From positions 1 to 60,411 of the forward strand of contig JAQYWC010000037.1 in the NCBI GenBank assembly GCA_030145245.1: a stretch of 60,411 nucleotides of DNA, read 5' to 3'. The notes beneath the pieces are model-generated. The model had not been told where the DNA came from, did not search any database, and saw nothing but the letters and a program-made list of their open reading frames with translations. Origin of the DNA: Desulfobacterium sp. (GTDB lineage Bacteria; Desulfobacterota; Desulfobacteria; Desulfobacterales; Desulfobacteraceae). A program made the position numbers and the translations under genes. How positions within the stretch are numbered: position 1 is the stretch's first letter; the number at the start of each line of letters is the position of its first letter. Shown here piece by piece: positions 2,170 to 13,986 of this stretch.

Positions 2170-4833
2170 ATGAAACCAAAAATTTTTACATATATTATGG
2201 TGATCATCATAGCCATGGTCGTTACCGGACCCGCATTTGCCGGCAATGACCCACTGCAAAGCCGACGCATCCTCTACCTTAACTCATACCAGAGCGGCTA
2301 TGCCTGGTCAGACGGCATCCTCAACGGCATACGGTCGGAGTTGTCCAAAAGAATAGAAAACCTGGATCTCCAGGTGGAGTTCATGGATTCCAAGAAATAT
2401 TATGGCAAGAAGATCCTGGAGATGCTCCACGGCTATTACCAGTACAAGTTCAAGGACGTTCGTTTTGATGTTGTGATCACCTCGGACAACAGCGCCTTTG
2501 AGTTTGCATTGAAATACAGGGACTCATTGTTTCCAGGGGTTCCCATCGTTTTTTGCGGATTGAACAATTATAATCCCGCCATGCTGGGGGGCCAAAAAGG
2601 GATCACCGGCATCGAGGAGAGCGTCGATTTTGCCGAGAACCTTGGGATTGCACGGCGTCTGCATCCCAATGCCACACAGATGGTGGTGATCGGCAACCGT
2701 ACCTTGACCTCCCTTGCCATCATCCGTGAGATCAAGAAGACCATCAAAGAGAAGGCCATTGATTTCAAGGTGTCGTTTATCTCAGGTTTTAAGACAAGCC
2801 ATCTTCAAGCCGGTAAAAAATCCTTCCTTGAAGACATTCCCAAGGATTCTTTGATTTACATCGTGCCCACCCATGAAGCCACCGGGGAAAAGTTCTACAC
2901 GCCGGAGGATATAAGCCGCATGGTGTGCAGGGCCACAAGTCTTCCGGTCTACAGCTCCTGGGTTTTTCTGACCGGTACCGGTATCGTGGGCGGCAAACTT
3001 GCCAGCGGGTTTGAGCACGGCAAAACAGCGGGAAGCGTTGCCGCACGAATCTTGAACGGAGAGAATCCGGATGCCATTCCCGTGGTCACCGGCGGCGGTC
3101 ACACCTATGTTTTTGACCACAACGTGCTCACCCGGTTCAATATAGAAAAGGAGCGGCTGCCCGAGGCCAGCGTTATCATCAACGAGCCCTACAACTTTTA
3201 TAAGCTGAACCGGCATATCTTCTGGGTGATCATTGCAAGCGTCATCATCCTCTCCGCCATGGTGATTCTCCTGGTCCTCAACATGGTCCAGAAAAGAAGG
3301 GCCAACTTTGCCATGCGGGAGTCCAAAAAGAAACTGCGGCTCATTCTGGACAACATTCCCCAGCTGGTGTTCTGGCAGGACCATGACCTGAACTTCGTTG
3401 ATGTGAACAACTCGTTCATGAAGTTTTTCAAGATCTCGGACAAGCGCAGCATCATTGGGTCCGCTATCACCAGCATCCCCAATCTGGGGGAGGCGGCCAA
3501 GGTTTCAAGGGAGCTTGGACTGAGGGTGCTTTCCACAAACAAGCCCAGCTACTCCTGTCCCTGGAAAATACGCATAAACGACCAGGAGTCGATCTGGCTT
3601 GAGATGAGCAAAATTCCCCTCCATGATGAAAACGGGAACGTCATCGGCGTGCTGAGTACGGCCGAGGACATCACCAAGAAGATCAATCTCAAAAAGCAGC
3701 TGACCCAGGCCCAGAAGATGGAGGCCCTGGGCATATTGTCGGGGGGGATTGCCCATGATTTCAACAATATCCTGACATCCATCATCAACTCCACCGAGCT
3801 TGCCATTGAAGATGTGCCCGTTGATTCCATCACCCGCAAGGATCTGGAACGGGTCTTGAACGCCGGAAACCGGGGCGCCAATCTTGTCAAGCAGATCCTG
3901 ACCTTTTCACGGCCCGGGCATATGCAGTTCAGGAACATGAGCATGACCGGCATTGTCACCGATGCCATGGAACTGTTGAAGACGTCTCTGCCGGGGAACC
4001 TTGAGATCATCACCGATATCGGTAAGATCCGGTCCCACTGCCACGGTGACCCTACCCAGATTCACCAGGTGGTCATGAACCTTTGCACCAACTCCTTCCA
4101 GGCCATGAACGGTTTGGGCGGAAGGCTCCGGGTCGGACTCAGGGAGCGGACCGTCTTTGCCGGTGAAGCCGAAAAGGTGAACCTGCTCCCCGGCAGCTAT
4201 GTGGAACTGACCGTTGCAGACAACGGTCCGGGCATCGATCCTGACATCATTGACAAGATTTTTGATCCCTTCTTTTCCACCAAGAGCAAGAACATCGGGA
4301 CGGGGCTCGGGCTCTCCATGGTCCATGGTATTGTCCAGGGCCACAACGGTGCCATCACGGTGACAAGTCTTCCCTTTGAACAGACCCAATTTACCATTTT
4401 GATTCCCCAGATCGACAGGGGTGATGATGATGAGGTCACAGGAGATACCGGTTCTCAAAGGGGCGAGGGCACTATCCTCTTTGTGGAGGATGATGCGGAT
4501 CAGCGGGAGAGCGTGCCAAGGACCCTGGAAAAACTGGGATACAGGGTCACCCCGGTCAACGATGCCCAAGAGGCCATGGAGCGCCTTTCCCTGGAGCCTG
4601 GAAAGTTCGATCTTGTGATCACCGATTATGACATGCCCAGAACCAGCGGCCTGGACCTGGCAAAGCAGATTAAAAAAATCCTGCCCGATCTTCCCTTGAT
4701 CATGGTGTCCGGGCGGAACGTGGATTTTTGTGTCCAGGAATCGGACAACATCCGGAAATTTGTTGTCAAACCCTACAACAAGACCATCCTGTCCGAAGCC
4801 ATCAACCAGGTGATGCACGGCCAGGATTTTTAA
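2170..4833 (+). CDS. Hybrid sensor histidine kinase with ABC-type periplasmic sensor
   Basis: An 887-residue membrane sensor kinase. It has an N-terminal signal/anchor (residues 1-24), then a periplasmic domain of about 300 residues resembling ABC substrate-binding proteins of the ABC_sub_bind type (RILYLNSYQSGYAWSDG at about 34). A membrane helix follows at about 350-374 (HIFWVIIASVIILSAMVILL), then a PAS domain at about 390-510. The HisKA phosphoacceptor is H529 in GGIAHDFNNIL, followed by an ATPase domain with NLCTNSFQAM and GTGLGLSMV. A C-terminal receiver has its phosphoacceptor aspartate at about 819 (VITDYDMP). It presumably senses a periplasmic small molecule and phosphorylates the sigma-54 regulator encoded 125 bases downstream. 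The divergent lactate permease suggests lactate or another organic acid as signal (inference). The spare receiver implies a branched phosphorelay. Confidence 0.9.
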   Translation: MKPKIFTYIMVIIIAMVVTGPAFAGNDPLQSRRILYLNSYQSGYAWSDGILNGIRSELSKRIENLDLQVEFMDSKKYYGKKILEMLHGYYQYKFKDVRFDVVITSDNSAFEFALKYRDSLFPGVPIVFCGLNNYNPAMLGGQKGITGIEESVDFAENLGIARRLHPNATQMVVIGNRTLTSLAIIREIKKTIKEKAIDFKVSFISGFKTSHLQAGKKSFLEDIPKDSLIYIVPTHEATGEKFYTPEDISRMVCRATSLPVYSSWVFLTGTGIVGGKLASGFEHGKTAGSVAARILNGENPDAIPVVTGGGHTYVFDHNVLTRFNIEKERLPEASVIINEPYNFYKLNRHIFWVIIASVIILSAMVILLVLNMVQKRRANFAMRESKKKLRLILDNIPQLVFWQDHDLNFVDVNNSFMKFFKISDKRSIIGSAITSIPNLGEAAKVSRELGLRVLSTNKPSYSCPWKIRINDQESIWLEMSKIPLHDENGNVIGVLSTAEDITKKINLKKQLTQAQKMEALGILSGGIAHDFNNILTSIINSTELAIEDVPVDSITRKDLERVLNAGNRGANLVKQILTFSRPGHMQFRNMSMTGIVTDAMELLKTSLPGNLEIITDIGKIRSHCHGDPTQIHQVVMNLCTNSFQAMNGLGGRLRVGLRERTVFAGEAEKVNLLPGSYVELTVADNGPGIDPDIIDKIFDPFFSTKSKNIGTGLGLSMVHGIVQGHNGAITVTSLPFEQTQFTILIPQIDRGDDDEVTGDTGSQRGEGTILFVEDDADQRESVPRTLEKLGYRVTPVNDAQEAMERLSLEPGKFDLVITDYDMPRTSGLDLAKQIKKILPDLPLIMVSGRNVDFCVQESDNIRKFVVKPYNKTILSEAINQVMHGQDF

Positions 4834-4958
4834 CCATGGATGTTTGCATTCGAATGGATACCTGCTGTCACTGTCAGGTGGTCTCGATTCATATGCAAGG
4901 TGCTGCAAAAAGCTTTTTTTTATTGCTTAACCCGGATCACTCCTTATTATAGACGACT

Positions 4959-6335
4959 ATGGCATTAATACTGATAATAGATGACGACAACAACTTCTGC
5001 GGGACCATGGAAAGCCTGATCCTGCGCATGGGACACGACTGTCTCAAGGCCGAAACCCTGAACCAGGGCATGGCGTTCCTTGCCACCCGGGATGTGGACA
5101 TCCTGCTTCTGGACGTGCGGCTGCCCGACGGCAACGGCCTTGAGTTTCTTCCCCAGATCAAGGAAAAGAGCATCTCCAATCCTGAGATTTTCATTGTAAC
5201 GGGACTGGGTGACCCGGATGGTGCCGAGGCCGCCATCAGGGAAGGGGTGTGGGATTATATTGTGAAGCCCACCTCGGTGAAGCAGACCAAGTTGAGCCTG
5301 ACCCGGGCATTGAAATACAGGGAGGAGAAAAAAAGCAAAAAGCAGACCGTGGCCATCGATCTTGACCGGATCATCGGCGAGTCACCCGTGATCAAGCAGT
5401 GCTTTGAAAGCCTTACCCGGGCCTCCGTGTCAAACGCCCCTGTCCTCATCACCGGTGAGACCGGCACCGGCAAGGAGCTTTTTGCCAATACCATCCATGA
5501 AAACAGCGTCAGGGGCCGGAACAATTTTGTTGTGGTGGACTGTGCCGCCCTGACCGAATCCCTGCTGGAGAGCACCCTGTTCGGCCATAAAAAAGGGGCT
5601 TTCACCGGGGCTGCGGACAAGCGGACAGGCCTTGTGAAGCTTGCGGACAAGGGAACCCTGTTCCTTGACGAGGTGGGCGAGATGCCGCTTTCCACCCAAA
5701 AATCCTTTTTGCGGGTGCTCCAGGAAAAACGGTTCCGCCCGGTGGGGGACAGCCTGGAAATCAGCAGCGACTTCCGCCTGATCGCCGCAACCAACCGGGA
5801 CCTTGACGCCATGGTCAAAAAAGGGGAGTTCCGCCAGGACCTGCTCTACAGGCTGTGCGCCGTCCAGCTCAGGATCCCCCCCTTGCGCAAGCGGGGAGGT
5901 GATATCAAACAACTTGCCATTTTCCATGTCAACCGGCTCTGTGATGACTACCAGATTCCCAACAAGGGATTTGAACAGGTTTTCTTTGACACCCTCAATG
6001 CTTACCACTGGCCCGGCAATGTGCGTGAGCTGTTCAATGTCCTGGAGACCGCCTTTGTGGCATCCGGTTATGAAAAAACCCTATACGCCATGCACCTTCC
6101 CAGGGAGATCCGCATCCAGGTGGCCAAGGCCTCCATGCAGAAGGGAACCGGCCGGCCGGATGAACCGGAAATGAGCCTCCCCTCCTTTAAGGAGTTCAAG
6201 AATCTCATGGAGATCAAGTACCTCAAGCAGATAATAGCGGAGAACCGGGGGGATGTGCAGACCATCCTGAAACGGTCCGGGCTCTCAAAATCCCATTTCT
6301 ACAGCCTGCTCAAAAAGTACGACATCAAAATATGA
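4959..6335 (+). CDS. Sigma-54-dependent response regulator (NtrC family)
   Basis: A 458-residue transcription activator with the standard NtrC layout. The receiver (residues 1-120) has phosphoacceptor D52 in LLLDVRLPDG. The AAA+ domain has Walker A GETGTGKE from about residue 166, the sigma-54 contact loop GAFTGA at 213-218 and FLDEVGEM as Walker B. The C-terminus carries a Fis-type helix-turn-helix (RGDVQTILKRSGLSKSHFYS). When phosphorylated it should hydrolyse ATP to open sigma-54 promoters. Its obvious partner is the histidine kinase just upstream. Likely targets are the two -24/-12 elements in the region between lctP and the kinase gene. Confidence 0.95.
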   Translation: MALILIIDDDNNFCGTMESLILRMGHDCLKAETLNQGMAFLATRDVDILLLDVRLPDGNGLEFLPQIKEKSISNPEIFIVTGLGDPDGAEAAIREGVWDYIVKPTSVKQTKLSLTRALKYREEKKSKKQTVAIDLDRIIGESPVIKQCFESLTRASVSNAPVLITGETGTGKELFANTIHENSVRGRNNFVVVDCAALTESLLESTLFGHKKGAFTGAADKRTGLVKLADKGTLFLDEVGEMPLSTQKSFLRVLQEKRFRPVGDSLEISSDFRLIAATNRDLDAMVKKGEFRQDLLYRLCAVQLRIPPLRKRGGDIKQLAIFHVNRLCDDYQIPNKGFEQVFFDTLNAYHWPGNVRELFNVLETAFVASGYEKTLYAMHLPREIRIQVAKASMQKGTGRPDEPEMSLPSFKEFKNLMEIKYLKQIIAENRGDVQTILKRSGLSKSHFYSLLKKYDIKI

Positions 6336-6443: not shown

Positions 6444-7112
6444 TTATTTTTTGTATACATCTATCCCGTAGCGGGCCATGCGTTCGCCCGAATCAAAATA
6501 ATGTTTTCTGATCTGATATTCCACGTCCCTTGGTACCCCTGATTTAAGGGCATCAACAATTACCCGGTGGCGCTGGTGGATCTCCTGGGCTGTGAACAGT
6601 TTTATCCAGTGTCTGAAAAGAAGAAATTTCGAAATTCCCTGGCAGGATCTGTGGCAGAGTTCGGAGAGCAGTTCGTTGTTTACCCTGGAAAAGAGGATCT
6701 GGTGAAATTCGTTGTCAAGCTCCGTATTGTCTTCAATGGGCGCCTGGGTATCCGCAATGGTTTTCATTTCCTGGACAAGGGTTTCCAATCTTGCAATATC
6801 CTTGTCTGTATAAAGGACAAGGGCTGCGGCCACAGCAGCCCCTTCCAGAATCCCGCCGGTAAAGTAGCTGTCCCTGATCTGTTTGGCGGTGAGGGTGGTT
6901 ACATATTTACCCTTCTGGGGCACGGAAACGATGAGCCCCTCCTTGGCAAGAATCTGGAGGGCTTCACGTATGGGGGCTCGACTGATGGAGAGTTTTTTAG
7001 CCAGGTTTACTTCTTTGATCTTTGTACCCGGCTGAAATTCTCCGTTCAGGATTCCCTTTTTTATATAGCTAACGACTTGGTCACTATAGGTTTGCTTCTT
7101 TATTTCAGGCAT
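6444..7112 (-). CDS. GntR-family transcriptional regulator (FCD type)
   Basis: A 222-residue regulator. Residues 1-75 form a GntR winged helix-turn-helix (YIKKGILNGEFQPGTKIKEV and LSISRAPIREALQILAKEGL). The rest is an all-helical FCD ligand domain with the expected metal/ligand residues scattered through ELDNEFHQILF and the C-terminal RKHYFDSG region. It is the last gene of the minus-strand cluster that starts with ridA, and an AAAGGA ribosome site precedes its ATG. FCD regulators usually bind short GT..AC palindromes and release them on binding an organic or amino acid. The two identical AATGTCGACATT palindromes upstream of ridA are the best candidate operators, which would make it the local repressor (inference). 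Confidence 0.9.
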   Translation of the reverse strand: MPEIKKQTYSDQVVSYIKKGILNGEFQPGTKIKEVNLAKKLSISRAPIREALQILAKEGLIVSVPQKGKYVTTLTAKQIRDSYFTGGILEGAAVAAALVLYTDKDIARLETLVQEMKTIADTQAPIEDNTELDNEFHQILFSRVNNELLSELCHRSCQGISKFLLFRHWIKLFTAQEIHQRHRVIVDALKSGVPRDVEYQIRKHYFDSGERMARYGIDVYKK

Positions 7113-7197
7113 TTACTGTCCTTTGTTTGCTCCGTGCTGTTGGTGGTGATACAAAAGTAAAAAGGTTGTAGATGGATTTTCATTTTTTTGCAAGTCA

Positions 7198-8442
7198 TCA
7201 TGGTTGTTTGCCGGTGAAAAGAAAGTTGAAATCATCTTCCCTGAAAGAAAAACGTTCTTCCATCTCCTGCCGGGCGTTTTCAATGTCTGCGGCAAGAACG
7301 GGCAGTGTTTTTTTGATGATGGCAATGTATTTGTCCGCATCCTGGGCCACGAAGGCGGGAATTTTCCATATTTTGATGGAGTGTTCCGAAACGGTCATGG
7401 AGAGGACCGCTGCCGTGCCGGGCATCAGCCCTCCGCCGGCCACCACATTGTGAAGATCCGAGGACATGAAGGTCACTCCGCCCGCATCCTGGCTGACAAT
7501 AACGGCCAGTTTTCCCATGATGGCAACTTTTTCCCGGGCGGTTGCGGCCCGGGCCAAATCCTTGCCAAGGGAGGTGATGCGTTCCCCCAGTTCCCGGGTG
7601 TTTGCTGCCATTTCATTGGTTCCCCGGGGGTAGGCCGTGTCGGAGCATGTGCAGGGAAGGCCCGTGGCATGGATTCCCTTGACCAAGGCGTTGTAGACCG
7701 CCCGGTTGTCCACATCCTTGTTCATCCTCACCCAGAACCGGTTGTCTTCCTGGTCTTTGCACATGGCGGGTACATATGCCTTGCTTTCGAGAATGATGGT
7801 GGGAAGCCGGTCAAGGCCAAGGGCTTTCATGGCGCGCCCTTTGTCCCCTAACATGATGTTTCCTTCCAGGTCTTCGTCCGGTCCGAGGCCCTGGTCATTG
7901 GCATTGAGCAGCGCCATGACGGAGACGGGAATTGAATTGATTTCCAGGACGGCCCCCATGGTCCTGCCGATCTTGCCGGGCATATCTTCATCGCCGGTGA
8001 CAAGTTTGCCTGGGTATTTTTTCTCAAAGGTGTCGATGACCGCAAGACAGGTGGCGGTCTGAAGGGCCACGGGCAGTTCCATAACGCCTTGGCCGTAGAT
8101 CCGGCCAAAGGCCGCAAAGGCGGCTTTCTGGCTGTATACGGCGTCAAGTCCAATGGCGAGCCGTACAAGGGTGGCCTCGTAGGGGGTGATGCCCCGGCGG
8201 GTCCGGGCGATTCCCTTGCCGCCGTCCTGGGTGCGGACCGTAACGGTACCGGTATCGATATCCGCATCCACCGAGGAGATGGTGGTGCACACAGGAAAGG
8301 CCCGGCGCAAAAGGCATGCGACCACGGCAAAGCCGGCCGTATCGTCCTGGACAAATCCGAAATTGCTGTGAACGTGTCCTGCGCCTGCATGGCCCATGAT
8401 ACCTATAATACCCTTGGACCGGCTGCTTTTTTCAACTTTCAT
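7198..8442 (-). CDS. Unrecognised 414-aa conserved-looking protein of the TRAP/PLP operon
   Basis: The ATG at 8442 was chosen because AAAGGAG sits eight bases upstream; longer reading would run back through a terminator hairpin. I do not recognise a family. The protein is soluble, with no signal peptide. Near its N-terminus it has a glycine/histidine-rich segment GHAGAGHVHSNFGF, and later motifs GLDAVYSQKAAFAAFGR, VLEINSIPVSVMALLNANDQ, CTCSDTAYPRG and GGVTFMSSDLHNVVAGGG. The conserved-looking histidines and glycines suggest an enzyme or a nucleotide/metal binder, but this is not proven. It lies between dctM and gntR on the same strand, so it probably acts on the imported substrate or its product. 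A hairpin terminator between dctM and this gene would set its expression below that of the transporter. Confidence 0.75.
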   Translation of the reverse strand: MKVEKSSRSKGIIGIMGHAGAGHVHSNFGFVQDDTAGFAVVACLLRRAFPVCTTISSVDADIDTGTVTVRTQDGGKGIARTRRGITPYEATLVRLAIGLDAVYSQKAAFAAFGRIYGQGVMELPVALQTATCLAVIDTFEKKYPGKLVTGDEDMPGKIGRTMGAVLEINSIPVSVMALLNANDQGLGPDEDLEGNIMLGDKGRAMKALGLDRLPTIILESKAYVPAMCKDQEDNRFWVRMNKDVDNRAVYNALVKGIHATGLPCTCSDTAYPRGTNEMAANTRELGERITSLGKDLARAATAREKVAIMGKLAVIVSQDAGGVTFMSSDLHNVVAGGGLMPGTAAVLSMTVSEHSIKIWKIPAFVAQDADKYIAIIKKTLPVLAADIENARQEMEERFSFREDDFNFLFTGKQP

Positions 8443-8469
8443 TGTGGTCGGATCTCCTTTGTATTCAAG

Positions 8470-8498
8470 AAAAGGCCCGGCAATGCCGGGCCTTTTTT
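8470..8498 (-). terminator. Intrinsic terminator after dctM, with T-runs on both strands
   Basis: Perfect 8-bp GC arms (GGCCCGGC at 8474-8481 and GCCGGGCC at 8485-8492) close a three-base loop. The stem is flanked by A and T runs on either side, so it could work in both directions. On the minus strand it lies just after the dctM stop and before the 414-aa gene, probably as a partial terminator. Confidence 0.75.
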
Positions 8499-8511
8499 CC
8501 ATATTTTTGTT

Positions 8512-9792
8512 CTACATTCCCGGGAGCCACAGGGTGAGCGCCGGAATAAAGACGATGGCAAGCAGGGCCATAACCATGGTCAACAGGAACGGCATCACTG
8601 CCACGCTGAGTTTCTCAATGGACAGGTTGCTGATGCTGCAGCCCACAAAAAGGTTTACACCCACCGGCGGGGTCAAAAAGCCCATGGAAGAGGTTACGAT
8701 CATGACGATACCAAAATGGATCGGGTCCATGCCAAGGTGTTTTACCACGGGCAGGAGCAGGGGGGTCAGGATCAGAATGTTGGCAAGGGCATCCATAAAG
8801 GTTCCCATGACCAGCAGGAATACCAGGATGATGGGAAGCAATACATACCGGTTGTCTGAAATACTGGAAAGAATCTCAACCAGCTGATTCGGCAGGTTGT
8901 AGAACAACAGGATCTGTCCCAAAGCGGTGGCGGTGGCGACCACAAGGAAGATGGATGAGGTTGTCAGGGCTGTGCCCTTGAAAACCTGGGCGATTTTTTC
9001 AAGGCTGAGGGTCTTCAGGAAGAGCCCTTCCACGATGAGGGAGTAGATAACGGCGATGACGCCCGCTTCCGTGGGCGTGGTGAATCCGCCGTAAATGCCG
9101 CCCAGAACAATTAAAGGCACCATGAGGGCCGGCAGTGCCGCCTTAAGGGAGGTGAATATCTCGGAGAGAGGTGCCCTTTTACCTGTGCCGGTAAATCCGT
9201 ATTTTTTGGACAGAATATAACTGCACAGCATCAGGCAGAGGCCCACAAAGATACCTGGGATGACGCCTGCGATAAAAAGATCGCCAACCGACACACCGGC
9301 AGTGGTGCCGTAAATGATCAGGGGAACACTTGGGGGAATGATGACGCCCAGGCAGCCGGCTGCGGTATTTACCGCGGTTGAAAAGGATTTACTGTACCCC
9401 TCTTTTTCCATGGAGGGAACCATGATGCCGCCAACGGCTGCCACCGTGGCAGGTGCAGACCCTGAGAGGGCGCCGTAGAACATGCTGGTGAGTACGGAGA
9501 TATGCGCCATGCCGCCGGTAACGTGGCCGACAAGGGCCCGGGATACGGCGAGCAGCCGCTGGGCCATGCTTCCCTTCTGCATGATCTCACCTGCCATGAT
9601 GAAAAACGGAACAGCCATCAGGGGAAACACATCCAGGGAGGTTACCATCTTCTGGATTAAGAATTCATAGGGAAGCATGTCACTGAAGGTCATGCCCACG
9701 GTGACACTCAGGCCGATGGCGATACCGATGGGTACACTCAAGAGCAGGAATGCCGCAAGGGAAACAAAGGTTAGAATAATTGCCAGGTCCAT
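8512..9792 (-). CDS. dctM: TRAP transporter large membrane subunit (DctM)
   Basis: A 426-residue, very hydrophobic protein of normal DctM length, with about 12 membrane helices. Family signatures include FPLMAVPFFIMAGEIM near residue 55, the GALSGSAPATVAAVG loop and the helix-breaking PTEAGVIAVIYSL. In TRAP systems this subunit forms the sodium-driven elevator channel that accepts substrate from the periplasmic DctP. It follows dctQ by 15 bases in the same minus-strand operon and is followed by a hairpin terminator. The substrate cannot be read from this subunit. The neighbouring PLP enzyme and RidA point to an amino acid or aminosulfonate. Confidence 0.95.
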   Translation of the reverse strand: MDLAIILTFVSLAAFLLLSVPIGIAIGLSVTVGMTFSDMLPYEFLIQKMVTSLDVFPLMAVPFFIMAGEIMQKGSMAQRLLAVSRALVGHVTGGMAHISVLTSMFYGALSGSAPATVAAVGGIMVPSMEKEGYSKSFSTAVNTAAGCLGVIIPPSVPLIIYGTTAGVSVGDLFIAGVIPGIFVGLCLMLCSYILSKKYGFTGTGKRAPLSEIFTSLKAALPALMVPLIVLGGIYGGFTTPTEAGVIAVIYSLIVEGLFLKTLSLEKIAQVFKGTALTTSSIFLVVATATALGQILLFYNLPNQLVEILSSISDNRYVLLPIILVFLLVMGTFMDALANILILTPLLLPVVKHLGMDPIHFGIVMIVTSSMGFLTPPVGVNLFVGCSISNLSIEKLSVAVMPFLLTMVMALLAIVFIPALTLWLPGM

Positions 9793-9807
9793 TTGCTCGG
9801 ATACTCC

Positions 9808-10308
9808 TTAATTAAGATCGATTGTTGGCGGTTTGATTTTGCCTGTGATCAGGCCGTAAATTCGTTCCGCAGTTCTTAACGCCATCAGTCCCATTCCCAC
9901 CGGAACACTTAAAAAGACCCAGTACGCCTGGATTTCAAGGGCAGGGGTTTTCTGGCCGGTGGAGGATAAAAACATGACAAACTGGATGCCCCATACGGTG
10001 GCGCAGACGCAGAAGACAATGGTGCAGACATAGGCGGCAATGGTAATCGGTTTGGCAAATTTGCCCCCGGCCATGTTCCGGACAACCGTGACTTCCAGGT
10101 GACGGTTCATCTGGGAGGCGTAACTGCAACCTACATAAACAGCCCATATAAAAAGGTAGCGGGCAACCTCTTCGGACCAGTCAAGGGAGCTCTGGAGTAC
10201 ATACCTGTTAAATACTTGTATAACTGTAATGCCGGTCATCATTACCAGGGAAACCGAGGAAAAAATCTCCTCGGTTCGGTTGATGACGGATTTTATGGAT
10301 TGGGTCAT
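9808..10308 (-). CDS. dctQ: TRAP transporter small membrane subunit (DctQ)
   Basis: A 166-residue protein with four predicted membrane helices, the standard DctQ shape. It carries the typical WSEEVARYLFIWAVYVG motif after the second helix and a short polar C-terminus. It pairs with DctM in the inner membrane. The start is supported by CAGGAG shortly before the ATG. A strong GC hairpin separates it from dctP upstream, which probably lets the binding protein be made in excess over the membrane subunits. Confidence 0.93.
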   Translation of the reverse strand: MTQSIKSVINRTEEIFSSVSLVMMTGITVIQVFNRYVLQSSLDWSEEVARYLFIWAVYVGCSYASQMNRHLEVTVVRNMAGGKFAKPITIAAYVCTIVFCVCATVWGIQFVMFLSSTGQKTPALEIQAYWVFLSVPVGMGLMALRTAERIYGLITGKIKPPTIDLN

Positions 10309-10333
10309 GGGAAGTTCTCCTGGAGTAGGATTT

Positions 10334-10358
10334 GCCGGGCAGGTTGCGTCTGCCCGGC
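10334..10358 (-). promoter_or_regulatory. Intercistronic hairpin between dctP and dctQ
   Basis: GCCGGGCAG at 10334-10342 pairs perfectly with CTGCCCGGC at 10350-10358 around a 7-base loop. No T-run follows on the minus strand, so it is better read as an mRNA-stabilising or processing element at the 3' end of dctP than as a full terminator. Confidence 0.6.
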
Positions 10359-10376
10359 GTATTCAGATGGTCTATA

Positions 10377-11369
10377 TTACTCGGCCATGGTTGCCCTGGC
10401 ACGGTCAATCAGATCTTTACCGATGCGTTTCTCAAACTTTTTGTAAACGTCAGCAGTTGCTTCCGCCCATCGTTTTCGCTCTTCAGGGGAGAGAACTGTT
10501 ACGGAAACGCCCTTGTCTTTCAGTTTTGCCATGATCTCTTTTTCGCCGTCGCGGATAAGTTTTCTTTCGTAGAGCTTTACTTCGTCAAATGTCGTCAGGA
10601 CAAGTTCTCTCTGGACCGGGGTAAGGCCGTCCAGGAAGCGTTTGGAGATCATCACGAGATGGGGGCTGTAGAGGCTGTTGACAATGGTGACATTGTTGTT
10701 TACTTCCGGGAAGTTGTTGTGCCATGCAAGGTTGAGATCGATGTCGATGCCGTCTACGGTTTTCTGCTGAAGGGCGGTGTAGACCTCACCCCAGGAGATG
10801 GGAGTGGGGTTCATGCCCAGTTCCTTCAGGGTTGCAATATGGGCTTTGGAGGGGGTGGATCGAATTTTAAGACCCTTGGCATCTGCCAGGGTGGAGACGG
10901 TTTTTTTGTTGTTCCAGAGGTTCCGGAAACCGATTTCAATATAGCCAAGGCCAATGATGCCGCTTTTTTCAAGGGCTTTGGTGGCGTTCATGCCGATGGG
11001 ACCGTCGGTGATTTTATCGGCTGAAGGGTAATCGGGGAAGAGAAAGGGGAGGTCAAAAATCAGGAATTCATCGGAAAAGGGAGCCAGGTTGGGGGTGGCT
11101 GCTGATCCCATTTGAAGCATGTTAAACTGTAGGCCTTGTACAACACTGTCGAAGTTTCCGAATTTGGAGCTGTCGAAGATATCCACGCGAAATTCGCCGT
11201 TGCTCCGGGATTCGATAAGCTCTTTGAACTTTTCAAACGCTTGTCCCATGGGGTGCTGGGGGACGTTGGGGTGGGCTAATTTAATAACGATGGGGCCTGC
11301 AACTGCGTAAGTGGTGGCCATGAAGATTGCGATCATAAGTGCTGCAAAAAATGTTTTGAATCTGGTCAT
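10377..11369 (-). CDS. dctP: TRAP transporter substrate-binding protein (DctP)
   Basis: A 330-residue periplasmic binding protein. The signal peptide (residues 1-24) ends at VAGPIV; the mature part opens with the family pattern IKLAHPNVPQHPMGQAFEKF. It also has the IEIGFRNLWNNKKTV segment containing the arginine/asparagine usually used to hold a carboxylate, and SWGEVYTALQQKTVDGID. AAAGGAG precedes the ATG. It should capture a carboxylate-bearing substrate and deliver it to DctQM. Its position between a PLP lyase and dctQM suggests the ligand is the lyase's substrate (inference). Confidence 0.95.
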   Translation of the reverse strand: MTRFKTFFAALMIAIFMATTYAVAGPIVIKLAHPNVPQHPMGQAFEKFKELIESRSNGEFRVDIFDSSKFGNFDSVVQGLQFNMLQMGSAATPNLAPFSDEFLIFDLPFLFPDYPSADKITDGPIGMNATKALEKSGIIGLGYIEIGFRNLWNNKKTVSTLADAKGLKIRSTPSKAHIATLKELGMNPTPISWGEVYTALQQKTVDGIDIDLNLAWHNNFPEVNNNVTIVNSLYSPHLVMISKRFLDGLTPVQRELVLTTFDEVKLYERKLIRDGEKEIMAKLKDKGVSVTVLSPEERKRWAEATADVYKKFEKRIGKDLIDRARATMAE

Positions 11370-11391
11370 CAGTTACTCCTTTGATATTAAT

Positions 11392-11486
11392 GATCCCGGA
11401 GCCTCACCTTTGGCTCCCGGGTGTTACTCCCATACAACAATCTGAGAGTAACGGGGGCCGCACCGACCCCGGGGGGGCGGTGCGAA
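11392..11486 (-). other. Three consecutive hairpins between the PLP-enzyme gene and dctP
   Basis: The 128-bp gap holds three inverted repeats in a row: CCCGGAGCC/GGCTCCCGGG (11395-11421, one bulge), GTTACTC/GAGTAAC (11423-11452) and GCACCG/CGGTGC (about 11461-11485). None has a clear T-run on the minus strand. They may attenuate or protect the transcript between the enzyme and transporter parts of the operon. Confidence 0.45.
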
Positions 11487-11497
11487 ATTCTTCCCTG

Positions 11498-12496
11498 TTA
11501 CCTGAAGGTATCAAGGTATGCATAAAGGGCTGGGGAGCCACCGGTATGAAGGAACAGGACGTTTGATCCTTCTTCAAAGTGCCCTTTTCTAACAAGGTCG
11601 ACAAGGCCGGCCATGGCCTTTCCGGAATAAACCGGGTCAAGGAGGATGCTTTCGGTGCTGGCCAGCAGTTTTACCGCTTCTACCATGCTTTCGGTGGGAA
11701 GGGAATAGCCGGGGCCGACATAACCGTCAAAACAGGTGATGGCTTCAGCCGGGATGGCTTCCTTCACGCCAACGTGGGCAGCGGTTTCAGTGGCAAGCTT
11801 GTGAACGAGGGCTTCCTGGACATCCTTGGTGCGGCTGACGTTGATGCCGGAGACGGGGATACCGGAGTTGGTGCCCACCATGCCGACGACCATACCTGCA
11901 TGGGTGCCGGCACTGCCGCTGGGAACAACCATGTGATCGATGTTGAGTTTCATCTCGAAAAGCTGCTGCTGAAGCTCCTGGGCACATGCCACATATCCGG
12001 TGGCGCCGATGGTGTTGGATGCACCGCCAGGGATGATGTAGGGATTTTTTCCCTCAGCTTTGAGTTTCTCTGCAAGTTTCTCCATTTCGCCCATCATGTC
12101 GGAGCCGCCGGCTGCAACGGCGACGCTTTTTACACCCATCATCTGGAACAGGAAGTTGTTGCCGGACGCCTCTTCCTTATAGCTTCCCTTTACACGCTCT
12201 TCCAGGATCAGGTGGCAGTCCATTCCCTCTTTTACAGCCCAGGAGAGGGTCAGACGGCAGTGGTTGGACTGAACTGCGCCGCAGGTGATGATGGTGTCAG
12301 CGCCTTTTTCAAGGGCATCTGCAATACAGAAATCAAGTTTTCGGGTCTTGTTTCCGCCGGCGCAACCGGGAAGCAGGTCGTCACGTTTGATATAAAGGTT
12401 GACTTTTCCACCCAATGCTTTGGAAAATGCGGGCATTGCTTCGATGGGGGTGGAACCCTGGAGATAACCTCTTCTGGGGAATTTTGAAAGATTCAT
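11498..12496 (-). CDS. PLP-dependent D-cysteine desulfhydrase / L-cysteate sulfo-lyase family enzyme
   Basis: A 332-residue fold-type II PLP enzyme of the DcyD/CuyA/ACC-deaminase group. The PLP lysine is K50 in AGGNKTRKL. The substrate-carboxylate loop is TCGAVQSNHCR, and phosphate-binding and C-terminal segments PSGSAGTHAG and FLHTGGSPALYAY are present. The family catalyses beta-elimination: D-cysteine to pyruvate, ammonia and sulfide (DcyD), or L-cysteate to pyruvate, ammonia and sulfite (CuyA). Both release 2-aminoacrylate, the substrate of the RidA encoded just upstream. The TRAP transporter downstream would supply the substrate. Sequence reading alone cannot choose between D-cysteine and L-cysteate. 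In a sulfate reducer, sulfite release would feed dissimilatory sulfite reductase directly, so the sulfonate option is attractive. ACC deaminase is less likely given the RidA pairing. Confidence 0.85.
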   Translation of the reverse strand: MNLSKFPRRGYLQGSTPIEAMPAFSKALGGKVNLYIKRDDLLPGCAGGNKTRKLDFCIADALEKGADTIITCGAVQSNHCRLTLSWAVKEGMDCHLILEERVKGSYKEEASGNNFLFQMMGVKSVAVAAGGSDMMGEMEKLAEKLKAEGKNPYIIPGGASNTIGATGYVACAQELQQQLFEMKLNIDHMVVPSGSAGTHAGMVVGMVGTNSGIPVSGINVSRTKDVQEALVHKLATETAAHVGVKEAIPAEAITCFDGYVGPGYSLPTESMVEAVKLLASTESILLDPVYSGKAMAGLVDLVRKGHFEEGSNVLFLHTGGSPALYAYLDTFR

Positions 12497-12532
12497 GGTC
12501 GTGGTAGTCCTTTTTTGTATTGTATCTGTTTT

Positions 12533-12931
12533 TTATTTTGTAAGAATGATAGCTTCTACTTCGATATCCGCACCCAGGGGAAGGGCTGCCACTTGGAAGG
12601 CACTTCGCGCGGGGTAGGGGGCCTTGAAGTACTCTGCGTATACTTCATTTACCGCCTGAAAATCCTTGATGTCAGCGAGAAGAACTGTGGTTTTGACCAC
12701 ATCTTCAAGTGTTGCGCCAGCCTCTTGGGCGATTGCCTGGAGGTTCTTGAATACCTGGTGGGCGCGAACGGCGATGGGGCCTTCGGGCATCTTTCCGGTT
12801 TCAGGATCGATGGGCAACTGACCCGAAGAGAATACAAGGTTGCCCGCCATAATGGCCTGCGAGTATGGTCCTACGGCGCCGGGCGCCTTGTCAGTGGAGA
12901 GTACTTTTTTTTCCATTGTCGCTTCAGACAT
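12533..12931 (-). CDS. ridA: RidA family enamine/imine deaminase
   Basis: A RidA (YjgF/YER057c/UK114) protein of about 132 residues. It has the characteristic N-terminal PGAVGPYSQA, SGQLPIDPETG and C-terminal PYPARSAFQVAALPLGADIEVEAI; the arginine in PARSAFQV is the catalytic carboxylate-binding residue. The start at 12931 is preferred because AAGGAA lies at good spacing; an ATG at 12952 is also in frame. RidA hydrolyses reactive 2-aminoacrylate/imines to keto acids and ammonia, protecting PLP enzymes. It is the first gene of the minus-strand operon and sits 36 bases before the PLP lyase that would generate such an intermediate. Confidence 0.93.
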   Translation of the reverse strand: MSEATMEKKVLSTDKAPGAVGPYSQAIMAGNLVFSSGQLPIDPETGKMPEGPIAVRAHQVFKNLQAIAQEAGATLEDVVKTTVLLADIKDFQAVNEVYAEYFKAPYPARSAFQVAALPLGADIEVEAIILTK

Positions 12932-13015
12932 TGTTTTTTCCTTTTCGTTCATTTTTATTCATTCCGGTTGCTGCTGTTCTTAATATCTGTCAGCAAGGCG
13001 GGGGAGTAAGTGTCG

Positions 13016-13027
13016 AATGTCGACATT
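13016..13027. promoter_or_regulatory. Operator palindrome 1 (AATGTCGACATT)
   Basis: A perfect 12-bp palindrome within a 15-bp block GAATGTCGACATTTG that recurs at 13114-13128. It is about 85 bases upstream of the ridA start. GT..AC palindromes of this size are typical of GntR/FCD regulators, one of which ends the downstream operon. Confidence 0.6.
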
Positions 13028-13114: not shown

Positions 13115-13126
13115 AATGTCGACATT
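13115..13126. promoter_or_regulatory. Operator palindrome 2 (AATGTCGACATT)
   Basis: A second exact copy of the 12-bp palindrome, centred 99 bp from the first (between nine and ten helical turns). This spacing would allow looping or cooperative binding by a dimeric regulator. Confidence 0.6.
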
Positions 13127-13374: not shown

Positions 13375-13986
13375 ATGAATAACTATGTTCTCTATCTCAT
13401 CATCGCGTCCGTCACCATTGCCAGCCCGGGTCCCGGGGTGTTGCTGACCGTTTCCAATTCCCTGCGTCACGGTTTTTCCGGTGCCATCCGAAGCATTCTG
13501 GGGGTGGCTGCCGGCATCTTGATCGTCGCTGTGGTTTCCGCAACGGGCCTGGGGCTGATGCTTGCCGCCTCCGCCATGGCCTTTTCAGTCATCAAGTATA
13601 TTGGTGCGGCCTATCTTGTTTGGCTCGGCATCAAGTTATGGCGGTCTCCAGCAGGGGTTCTTGGGCCGGATATGCCTGAAAACGAAAGCCGGGGCGGCCG
13701 TTTTGTGGAAGGAATTTCAATCACGCTTTTAAATCCCAAGGCGATCTTCTTCTTTATGTCCCTCTTTCCACAGTTTATCGATCATTCCGCGGCGTATGCA
13801 GGCCAGTTTGCACTGCTTTCGCTCTCCTACTGCGTGCTCGTGGTCATCATCCACAGCGTCTATGCCCTGGGAGCAAAATCGATCCGGGGCTGGGTGGCCA
13901 CCCCCCGTGGGAACAGTATCGTCAAAAAAGTGGCCGGAGGCGCGTTTATGGCATTTGGCGCTGCGCTGGCCACATCCGGGAGATAG
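13375..13986 (+). CDS. LysE/RhtB-family amino-acid exporter
   Basis: A 203-residue inner-membrane protein with six predicted helices and the LysE-superfamily N-terminal signature SVTIASPGPGVLLTVSNSLRHG. It also has SATGLGLML, KYIGAAYLVWLGIKLWRS and the conserved ITLLNPKAIFFFMSLFPQF. Family members export amino acids or related small molecules. TTGAGGA precedes the ATG. It is divergent from the ridA/PLP-lyase/TRAP operon and shares an operator-like element with it, so export of an excess amino acid or by-product of that pathway is plausible but unproven. Confidence 0.9.
   Translation: MNNYVLYLIIASVTIASPGPGVLLTVSNSLRHGFSGAIRSILGVAAGILIVAVVSATGLGLMLAASAMAFSVIKYIGAAYLVWLGIKLWRSPAGVLGPDMPENESRGGRFVEGISITLLNPKAIFFFMSLFPQFIDHSAAYAGQFALLSLSYCVLVVIIHSVYALGAKSIRGWVATPRGNSIVKKVAGGAFMAFGAALATSGR

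Follow-up and report, generated by a model that had tools for sequence, protein, structure and literature searches.

A probable GntR-controlled operon for cysteate uptake and desulfonation in Desulfobacterium, with an uncharacterised protein in the place of CuyB

A described route for cysteate breakdown involves two enzymes: CuyB interconverts L- and D-cysteate, and CuyA, which prefers the D form, desulfonates it (PMC11382572, as summarised there with reference to Liu et al. 2024, JBC 300:107371). In Ruegeria pomeroyi, cuyA adjoins the regulator gene cuyR and cuyZ, which encodes a sulfite exporter (PMC4334477), and PMC11382572 gives the CuyB gene of this organism as unknown. For anaerobes, PMC6278857 names cysteate among the organic compounds that donate sulfite to respiration, citing Lie 1996, and another sulfonate, isethionate, is bound by IseP of a tripartite ATP-independent periplasmic (TRAP) transporter in Oleidesulfovibrio, for which ligand-contact residues are described (PMC11668362). 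Here, we analysed a 60,411-nucleotide stretch of Desulfobacterium sp. (contig JAQYWC010000037.1, assembly GCA_030145245.1; hereafter the window), in which a sequence-only reading, made without database searches, had proposed an operon for uptake and desulfonation of cysteate or D-cysteine. Our comparisons support the proposal in part, by homology (CuyA, the TRAP transporter and DsrA in the genome), and disfavour its D-cysteine alternative. We regard a GntR-controlled operon for cysteate uptake and desulfonation as the likely explanation of the locus as a whole, leaving aside the racemase step.

The genes of this operon, namely ridA, a pyridoxal 5'-phosphate (PLP) dependent lyase gene, dctPQM, an uncharacterised gene and a gene for a GntR/FCD regulator, were all found where the sequence-only reading had placed them, collinear on the minus strand (Table 1). 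The ridA end had to be corrected, as position 12931 is an internal ATG of the RidA open reading frame (ORF). The same order recurs in genome G474 (locus L083), in a Desulfovibrio metagenome-assembled genome (MAG; L011) and in further loci of the L011 class (e.g., L130-L135, L139-L142), which lifts it beyond chance. The single-operon reading carries one qualification, a hairpin between dctM and the uncharacterised gene that may lessen read-through.

Over its full length (residues 1-331), the lyase scores 531.7 bits with the curated equivalog NF052482 (CuyA, D-cysteate sulfo-lyase; cut-off 450), so that the broader prediction of a DcyD/CuyA-type enzyme can be narrowed to CuyA. Three D-cysteine desulfhydrase (DcyD) equivalog models reach 278-297 bits, under their cut-offs of 429-610, and the 1-aminocyclopropane-1-carboxylate (ACC) deaminase model TIGR01274 reaches 260 bits, under its cut-off of 392. 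Both identities were rejected on these grounds. Because the CuyA cut-off is passed and the other equivalogs are failed, sequence comparison favours cysteate over D-cysteine as the substrate of a CuyA enzyme. K50, S77, Y264, Y290, S291 and T318, which we take to include the PLP lysine and to mark a lyase-type active site, are all present. In the alignment with the ACC deaminase 1rqx, Ser291 and Thr318 stand opposite Glu and Leu, and this pair separates lyases from ACC deaminases. Among 71 aligned CuyA rows, Ser (44 rows) and Thr (27 rows) share position 291, whereas at position 318 there is a single Ser against 70 Thr. A grouping with ACC deaminases, named by the sequence-only reading among the outcomes that would contradict it, is thus not what score and residues indicate, and although the enzyme belongs to the same PLP superfamily, we consider an ACC deaminase operon extremely improbable.

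Uptake would fall to the TRAP transporter, which is complete as predicted, with DctP, DctQ and DctM all recognised by Pfam or NCBIfam models. The link to the isethionate system lies in DctP: IseP (8t9t) is its second-best solved relative (191.6 bits), and the alignment keeps the paired arginines R149 and R170 as well as N94, W193 and H237 (Asn98, Trp200 and His244 of IseP). These residues fit an anionic substrate without fixing cysteate, and both systems would handle a sulfonate in a sulfate reducer.

In the proposed pathway, cysteate would supply sulfite, carbon and nitrogen. It would enter through the TRAP system, and an isomerase would convert it to the D form, the uncharacterised protein being the foremost, albeit tentative, candidate since the genome lacks a recognisable CuyB. 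By family chemistry, CuyA would then eliminate sulfite to give 2-aminoacrylate, which RidA would help to hydrolyse to pyruvate and ammonium. DsrAB would reduce the sulfite for energy, and the conserved sites suggest that the GntR protein acts at two copies of AATGTCGACATT ahead of ridA. The genome encodes DsrA (608 bits, above cut-off) with an adjoining second, DsrB-like match, so the sulfite could be respired via dissimilatory sulfite reductase. This agrees with the earlier idea that L-cysteate would yield sulfite for respiration, but the L form is probably not the direct substrate of the lyase, since CuyA is reported to prefer D-cysteate, which the racemase CuyB supplies (PMC11382572), and the source genome (listed completeness 99.61) contains no CuyB above the 190-bit cut-off of the CuyB model NF052483, its best match scoring 117 bits. 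The operon thereby poses a testable gap, the route from L-cysteate to a D-selective lyase, for which it offers an orphan protein and no known racemase. Like R. pomeroyi cuyARZ, the operon combines cuyA with a regulator gene. In contrast, it has no exporter gene, and sulfite respiration is likely to take that place. TauE-type sulfite-exporter genes do stand beside relatives of the uncharacterised gene in three loci (L014, which also has CuyA, L149 and L153), and as Propionigenium carries CuyA, RidA, TauE and the uncharacterised protein, sulfite may simply be exported elsewhere.

Several findings weigh against this picture and have to be set beside it. Among solved structures, DctP scores best with 4p47 (196.5 bits), described as a dicarboxylate TRAP subunit; several IseP contacts are changed in the alignment (D77 to F, S95 to A, Y153 to I, N217 to I), which sets the window's DctP apart from that of the isethionate system; and the two arginines suit carboxylates as well as sulfonates, so that they do not fix the ligand. 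The hairpin ahead of the uncharacterised gene may uncouple that gene from the operon, and the genome's aspartate/glutamate-type racemase, which is the 117-bit match, could act on cysteate instead; for a 218-residue piece of it, the top-scoring models are those of aspartate/glutamate racemases. Taurinivorans muris has a CuyA homolog and yet, as stated in PMC10507020, showed no growth with cysteate. Finally, the lyase passes the broad D-cysteine desulfhydrase subfamily model TIGR01275 (304.9 vs 289.4 bits), and its nearest solved relative, 7ysk (319.7 bits), is called a D-cysteine desulfhydrase. The last two points, the presence of D-cysteine desulfhydrases among the closest solved relatives in general and a statement in PMC10507020 that CuyA acts also as a D-cysteine desulfhydrase would suit an operon that takes up and desulfhydrates D-cysteine, either to detoxify or to use it, with release of sulfide. 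Given the failed DcyD equivalogs and the passed CuyA model, we judge this improbable. The surroundings of related lyases also fit sulfonates: the TauE exporter gene stands at L014, and hpsN-like and DegT aminotransferase genes of the 2,3-dihydroxypropane-1-sulfonate (DHPS) pathway are both present in 7 of 11 hand-picked stretches with CuyB and CuyA and without the uncharacterised protein. The hpsN-like and DegT labels denote similarity to genes of L012 and, for the relatives of these genes in L087, also Pfam matches (histidinol dehydrogenase, DegT).

Returning to the cysteate operon, it shares with the CuyA-CuyB pathway a CuyA above the curated cut-off, the predicted desulfonation to sulfite, pyruvate and ammonium and the RidA gene, which adjoins CuyA-CuyB too in several stretches. 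It differs in that operon and genome are without CuyB above cut-off, in that an unrelated protein stands in its place, and in having its own TRAP subtype, GntR protein and candidate operator. The comparison extends to DHPS/sulfolactate-type clusters with hpsN-like, DegT, cuyA and cuyB genes (L160, L161, L164, L166-L168, L171), found among 12 CuyB-type stretches (L160-L171) that were chosen by us from the match list and not at random. A CuyA-type lyase, in several cases RidA, and, as seen in all but L167, a TRAP transporter are common to these clusters and the window. The operon has neither hpsN-like gene nor aminotransferase nor cuyB, and the TRAP proteins of the clusters share no more than 25-42% identity with their counterparts in the window.

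This alternation of CuyB and the uncharacterised protein is also seen in numbers. One class has 78 CuyA loci above cut-off; of the 72 without the uncharacterised protein, 54 have CuyB within 10 kb, as against one of the six with it (Fisher p 0.0076 for raw counts of related loci). The CuyB list behind this count included G361, a fragment that at 179 bits falls below the cut-off, and here as in the tree counts some CuyA loci scored with neither gene sit at the end of a contig, so that a neighbour may have escaped notice. In a wider set that includes those six, CuyB is near 3 of 28 CuyA loci with the uncharacterised protein (L033, L137, L138), and an hpsN-like or DegT gene is near none of the 28; CuyB also lies near the uncharacterised protein in L012, there without CuyA nearby. 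Three genomes (G000, G474, G767) combine CuyA and the uncharacterised protein with no CuyB above cut-off, and the best match of G768 (184 bits) falls just under it. CuyB does occur elsewhere in the genomes of G020, G113, G114, G200, G249, the Desulfoluna-type G264, G292, G299, G326 and Propionigenium (G769). In a sister species of the window's genus (G187, L165) a DAACS permease gene, ridA, cuyA and cuyB are found together, as against TRAP, uncharacterised gene, ridA and cuyA in the window. These counts, the genomes without CuyB above cut-off and the G187 arrangement indicate that, in clusters which apparently take up cysteate itself, the uncharacterised protein often fills a position that would call for CuyB.

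What this protein does is a separate matter. We tentatively propose a new family of cysteine-free cysteate racemases, perhaps acting also on acidic amino acids such as aspartate. In sulfate reducers and further anaerobes that import cysteate directly, it would replace CuyB, in many of them within a common GntR regulon with the operator TGTCnAATGTCGACATTnGACA. We hold this to be possible rather than probable because of the loci without CuyA, a non-significant tree test and the lack of a conserved cysteine. In 23 of 51 loci CuyA is not near the uncharacterised gene, which mostly stands with TRAP genes alone. In the CuyA tree, the label "beside uncharacterised protein" needs at least five changes on starred branches, and mutual exclusion gave five independent pairs on starred branches with a sign test that was not significant (median p 1, range 0.25-1); three of 72 rows were left out of the first tree and six of 72 out of the paired-test tree (fragments, duplicates). 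Aspartate/glutamate racemases use two cysteine thiols, a mechanism closed to this protein, since the best column of a 48-sequence alignment is 44% Cys. The loci without CuyA and the lack of a conserved cysteine, together with unrelated kinds of transporter beside the gene (TRAP, DAACS, ABC, CitMHS-like permease, Na+/H+-antiporter-family permease), its adjacency to asparaginase genes and the four loci where CuyB stands near it, in three of them with CuyA, would agree with a different role: the cysteate pathway would be right, but the protein would release cysteate or another acidic amino acid from a precursor brought in by transport, or would aid uptake, and isomerisation would be left to another enzyme or be unneeded. 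This is a serious contender, which we would put a little short of even. It has to accommodate the scarcity of CuyB beside the protein, both in the 78 loci and in the wider set, the three genomes without CuyB above cut-off and, if CuyA is D-selective, the need for a step that supplies D-cysteate.

The uncharacterised protein of the window has no Pfam or NCBIfam match at E 0.001, and for 18 relatives the same databases gave one-member matches only, with E values of at least 0.013 and never to a racemase. Membership of the CuyB family (aspartate/glutamate racemase family, NF052483) was not found, neither single-sequence nor profile searches found a PDB relative, and hhalign found no internal repeats. 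Invariant residues in the 48 sequences include H18, H23, D34, E190, D191, E193, K201, E219, R239, D245 and R273, which might make up a metal site or an acid-base site. No paper on the protein or the operator was found by title or abstract among open-licence papers, where an unnamed protein is hard to search for. The gene was found in 12 of 389 genomes in the window's class, in 2 of 395 in a phylum sample that includes the source genome and in 33 of 348 in the class to which G767 belongs, the Desulfovibrio MAG that contains L011. Named records among 10 loci are Desulfoluna, Desulfovibrio MAGs, Propionigenium maris and a spirochaete MAG. The 51 loci comprise 51 rows less the duplicate L042, plus L121, with L015 and L158 holding a gene fragment only; alignment and tree omit three of 51 rows (one duplicate, two fragments). 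CuyA lies within 10 kb in 28 of these loci, and a CuyA test of 16 genomes with the gene put 14 above cut-off and found a fragment in one, compared with 69 of 389 class genomes above cut-off. Among the loci with no CuyA near, other neighbours are a DAACS permease (L015, L030) and an ABC transporter (L012). In L016 (1-2000), L143, L144 and L148 the gene stands beside an asparaginase-family gene with no CuyA near, hinting at a role with acidic amino acids generally. L012 (2-9176) unites both pathway types: besides the uncharacterised protein it holds CuyB (cut by the contig end), hpsN-like and DegT-like genes and what by eye is an Ssu-like ABC transporter.

Table 1. Features of the putative cysteate operon and its upstream region (positions in the window; a dot marks features without strand).
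Feature	Position	Strand	Basis
RidA, enamine/imine deaminase for 2-aminoacrylate	12533..12952	-	TIGR00004, 174.4 bits (cut-off 106.25); PF01042
CuyA, PLP-dependent D-cysteate sulfo-lyase	11498..12496	-	NF052482, 531.7 bits (cut-off 450); active-site residues
DctP, TRAP substrate-binding protein, putative cysteate binder	10377..11369	-	PF03480, 259.3 bits; IseP 8t9t, 191.6 bits; R149, R170
DctQ, TRAP small permease	9808..10308	-	PF04290, 118.9 bits
DctM, TRAP large permease	8512..9792	-	PF06808, 380.6 bits; TIGR00786 above cut-off
Terminator-like hairpin (intrinsic type), 14-pair stem, between dctM and uncharacterised gene	8468..8498	.	hairpin scan
Uncharacterised protein, about 414 residues, possible non-homologous cysteate racemase	7198..8442 (listed ORF to 8502)	-	no relative in Pfam, NCBIfam or PDB; found repeatedly near CuyA and transporters
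GntR/FCD regulator, candidate AATGTCGACATT binder	6444..7112	-	PF00392, PF07729
Candidate operator site 1, AATGTCGACATT	13016..13027	.	about 64 nt upstream of ridA; one of two exact genome matches
Candidate operator site 2, AATGTCGACATT	13115..13126	.	the other exact genome match

Concerning regulation, AATGTCGACATT is a candidate operator of the GntR/FCD protein. It has exactly two matches in the 6,418,480-base genome, both between ridA and the divergent LysE-type gene, and the reversed pattern, used as control, has none. Its 10-base core ATGTCGACAT occurs at 36 sites in 72 stretches (1,089,117 bases, some stretches being near-copies), compared with 1.04 expected at equal base frequencies, and 35 of the 36 lie in cuyA-carrying stretches. 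Most of them precede ridA by about 300 bases at most or, at loci that lack ridA or for a second copy, stand no farther than about 400 bases from cuyA; six fall just within the longest possible ridA ORF, and many flanks extend the core towards TGTCnAATGTCGACATTnGACA. Where a stretch encodes a GntR relative of at least 40% identity, the core is there as well in 23 of 25 cases (exceptions L032 and L161), and it also occurs in three stretches with no such relative in view (L136, L138, L147). It was not found in the 12 CuyB-type stretches L160-L171, another difference between the window and the DHPS/sulfolactate-type clusters; L138, with CuyB and the uncharacterised protein, has it. This candidate operator offers a way to predict cysteate use in sulfate reducers. 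A divergent LysE-family exporter gene (13375-13986) shares the intergenic region with both palindromes and may belong to the regulon. The same may hold in L134 (13796-15271), where a separate palindrome stands some 240 bases ahead of a DAACS-type permease gene that adjoins the cuy operon. L139 (11893-14869), L140 (369-4737) and L141 (144-4508) each contain a near-identical pair of cuyA genes, with a palindrome site ahead of both cuyA units in L139 and, between the copies in L140 and L141, a gene resembling (by eye) the Na+/H+-antiporter-family gene of L155.

The history of the operon seems mixed. The window CuyA shares 87% identity with the L130 enzyme, and in the CuyA tree it pairs with L083 (97, starred) in an 11-row set of mainly L011-class loci (support 87, not starred). 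The TRAP proteins are 78-92% identical to those of the Desulfoluna-type loci L007-L010, which come from the window's own taxonomic order, and the uncharacterised protein is 71-74% identical to its L007-L010 counterparts and groups with them and L083 (96, starred). It was not found in two sampled genus mates. Acquisition from Desulfovibrionia, as read from the CuyA tree, was dropped because the tree of the uncharacterised protein and the TRAP identities point to Desulfoluna; some horizontal transfer, in one direction or the other, is likely. In L032 (5507-10909; G064), a TRAP large permease fragment and the uncharacterised gene lie between two near-identical transposase-like genes (by eye), and no CuyA-level match was found in that genome (best E 2.7e-7).

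At the level of individual elements, the uncharacterised gene more likely starts at 8442 than at 8502, since AAAGGAG precedes the ATG, several relatives begin there and the hairpin lies between the two start codons. This hairpin has the longest stem of 12 such sites in the region (10.5 expected from shuffles). It has T tracts on both strands and may lower expression of the uncharacterised gene and gntR. A scan for sigma-70 promoters gave 6 hits against 5.3 expected and was uninformative. Directly downstream of the operon, on the opposite strand, a sensor kinase gene with a receiver domain (by eye) is followed by one for a sigma-54-type response regulator (2170-6335).

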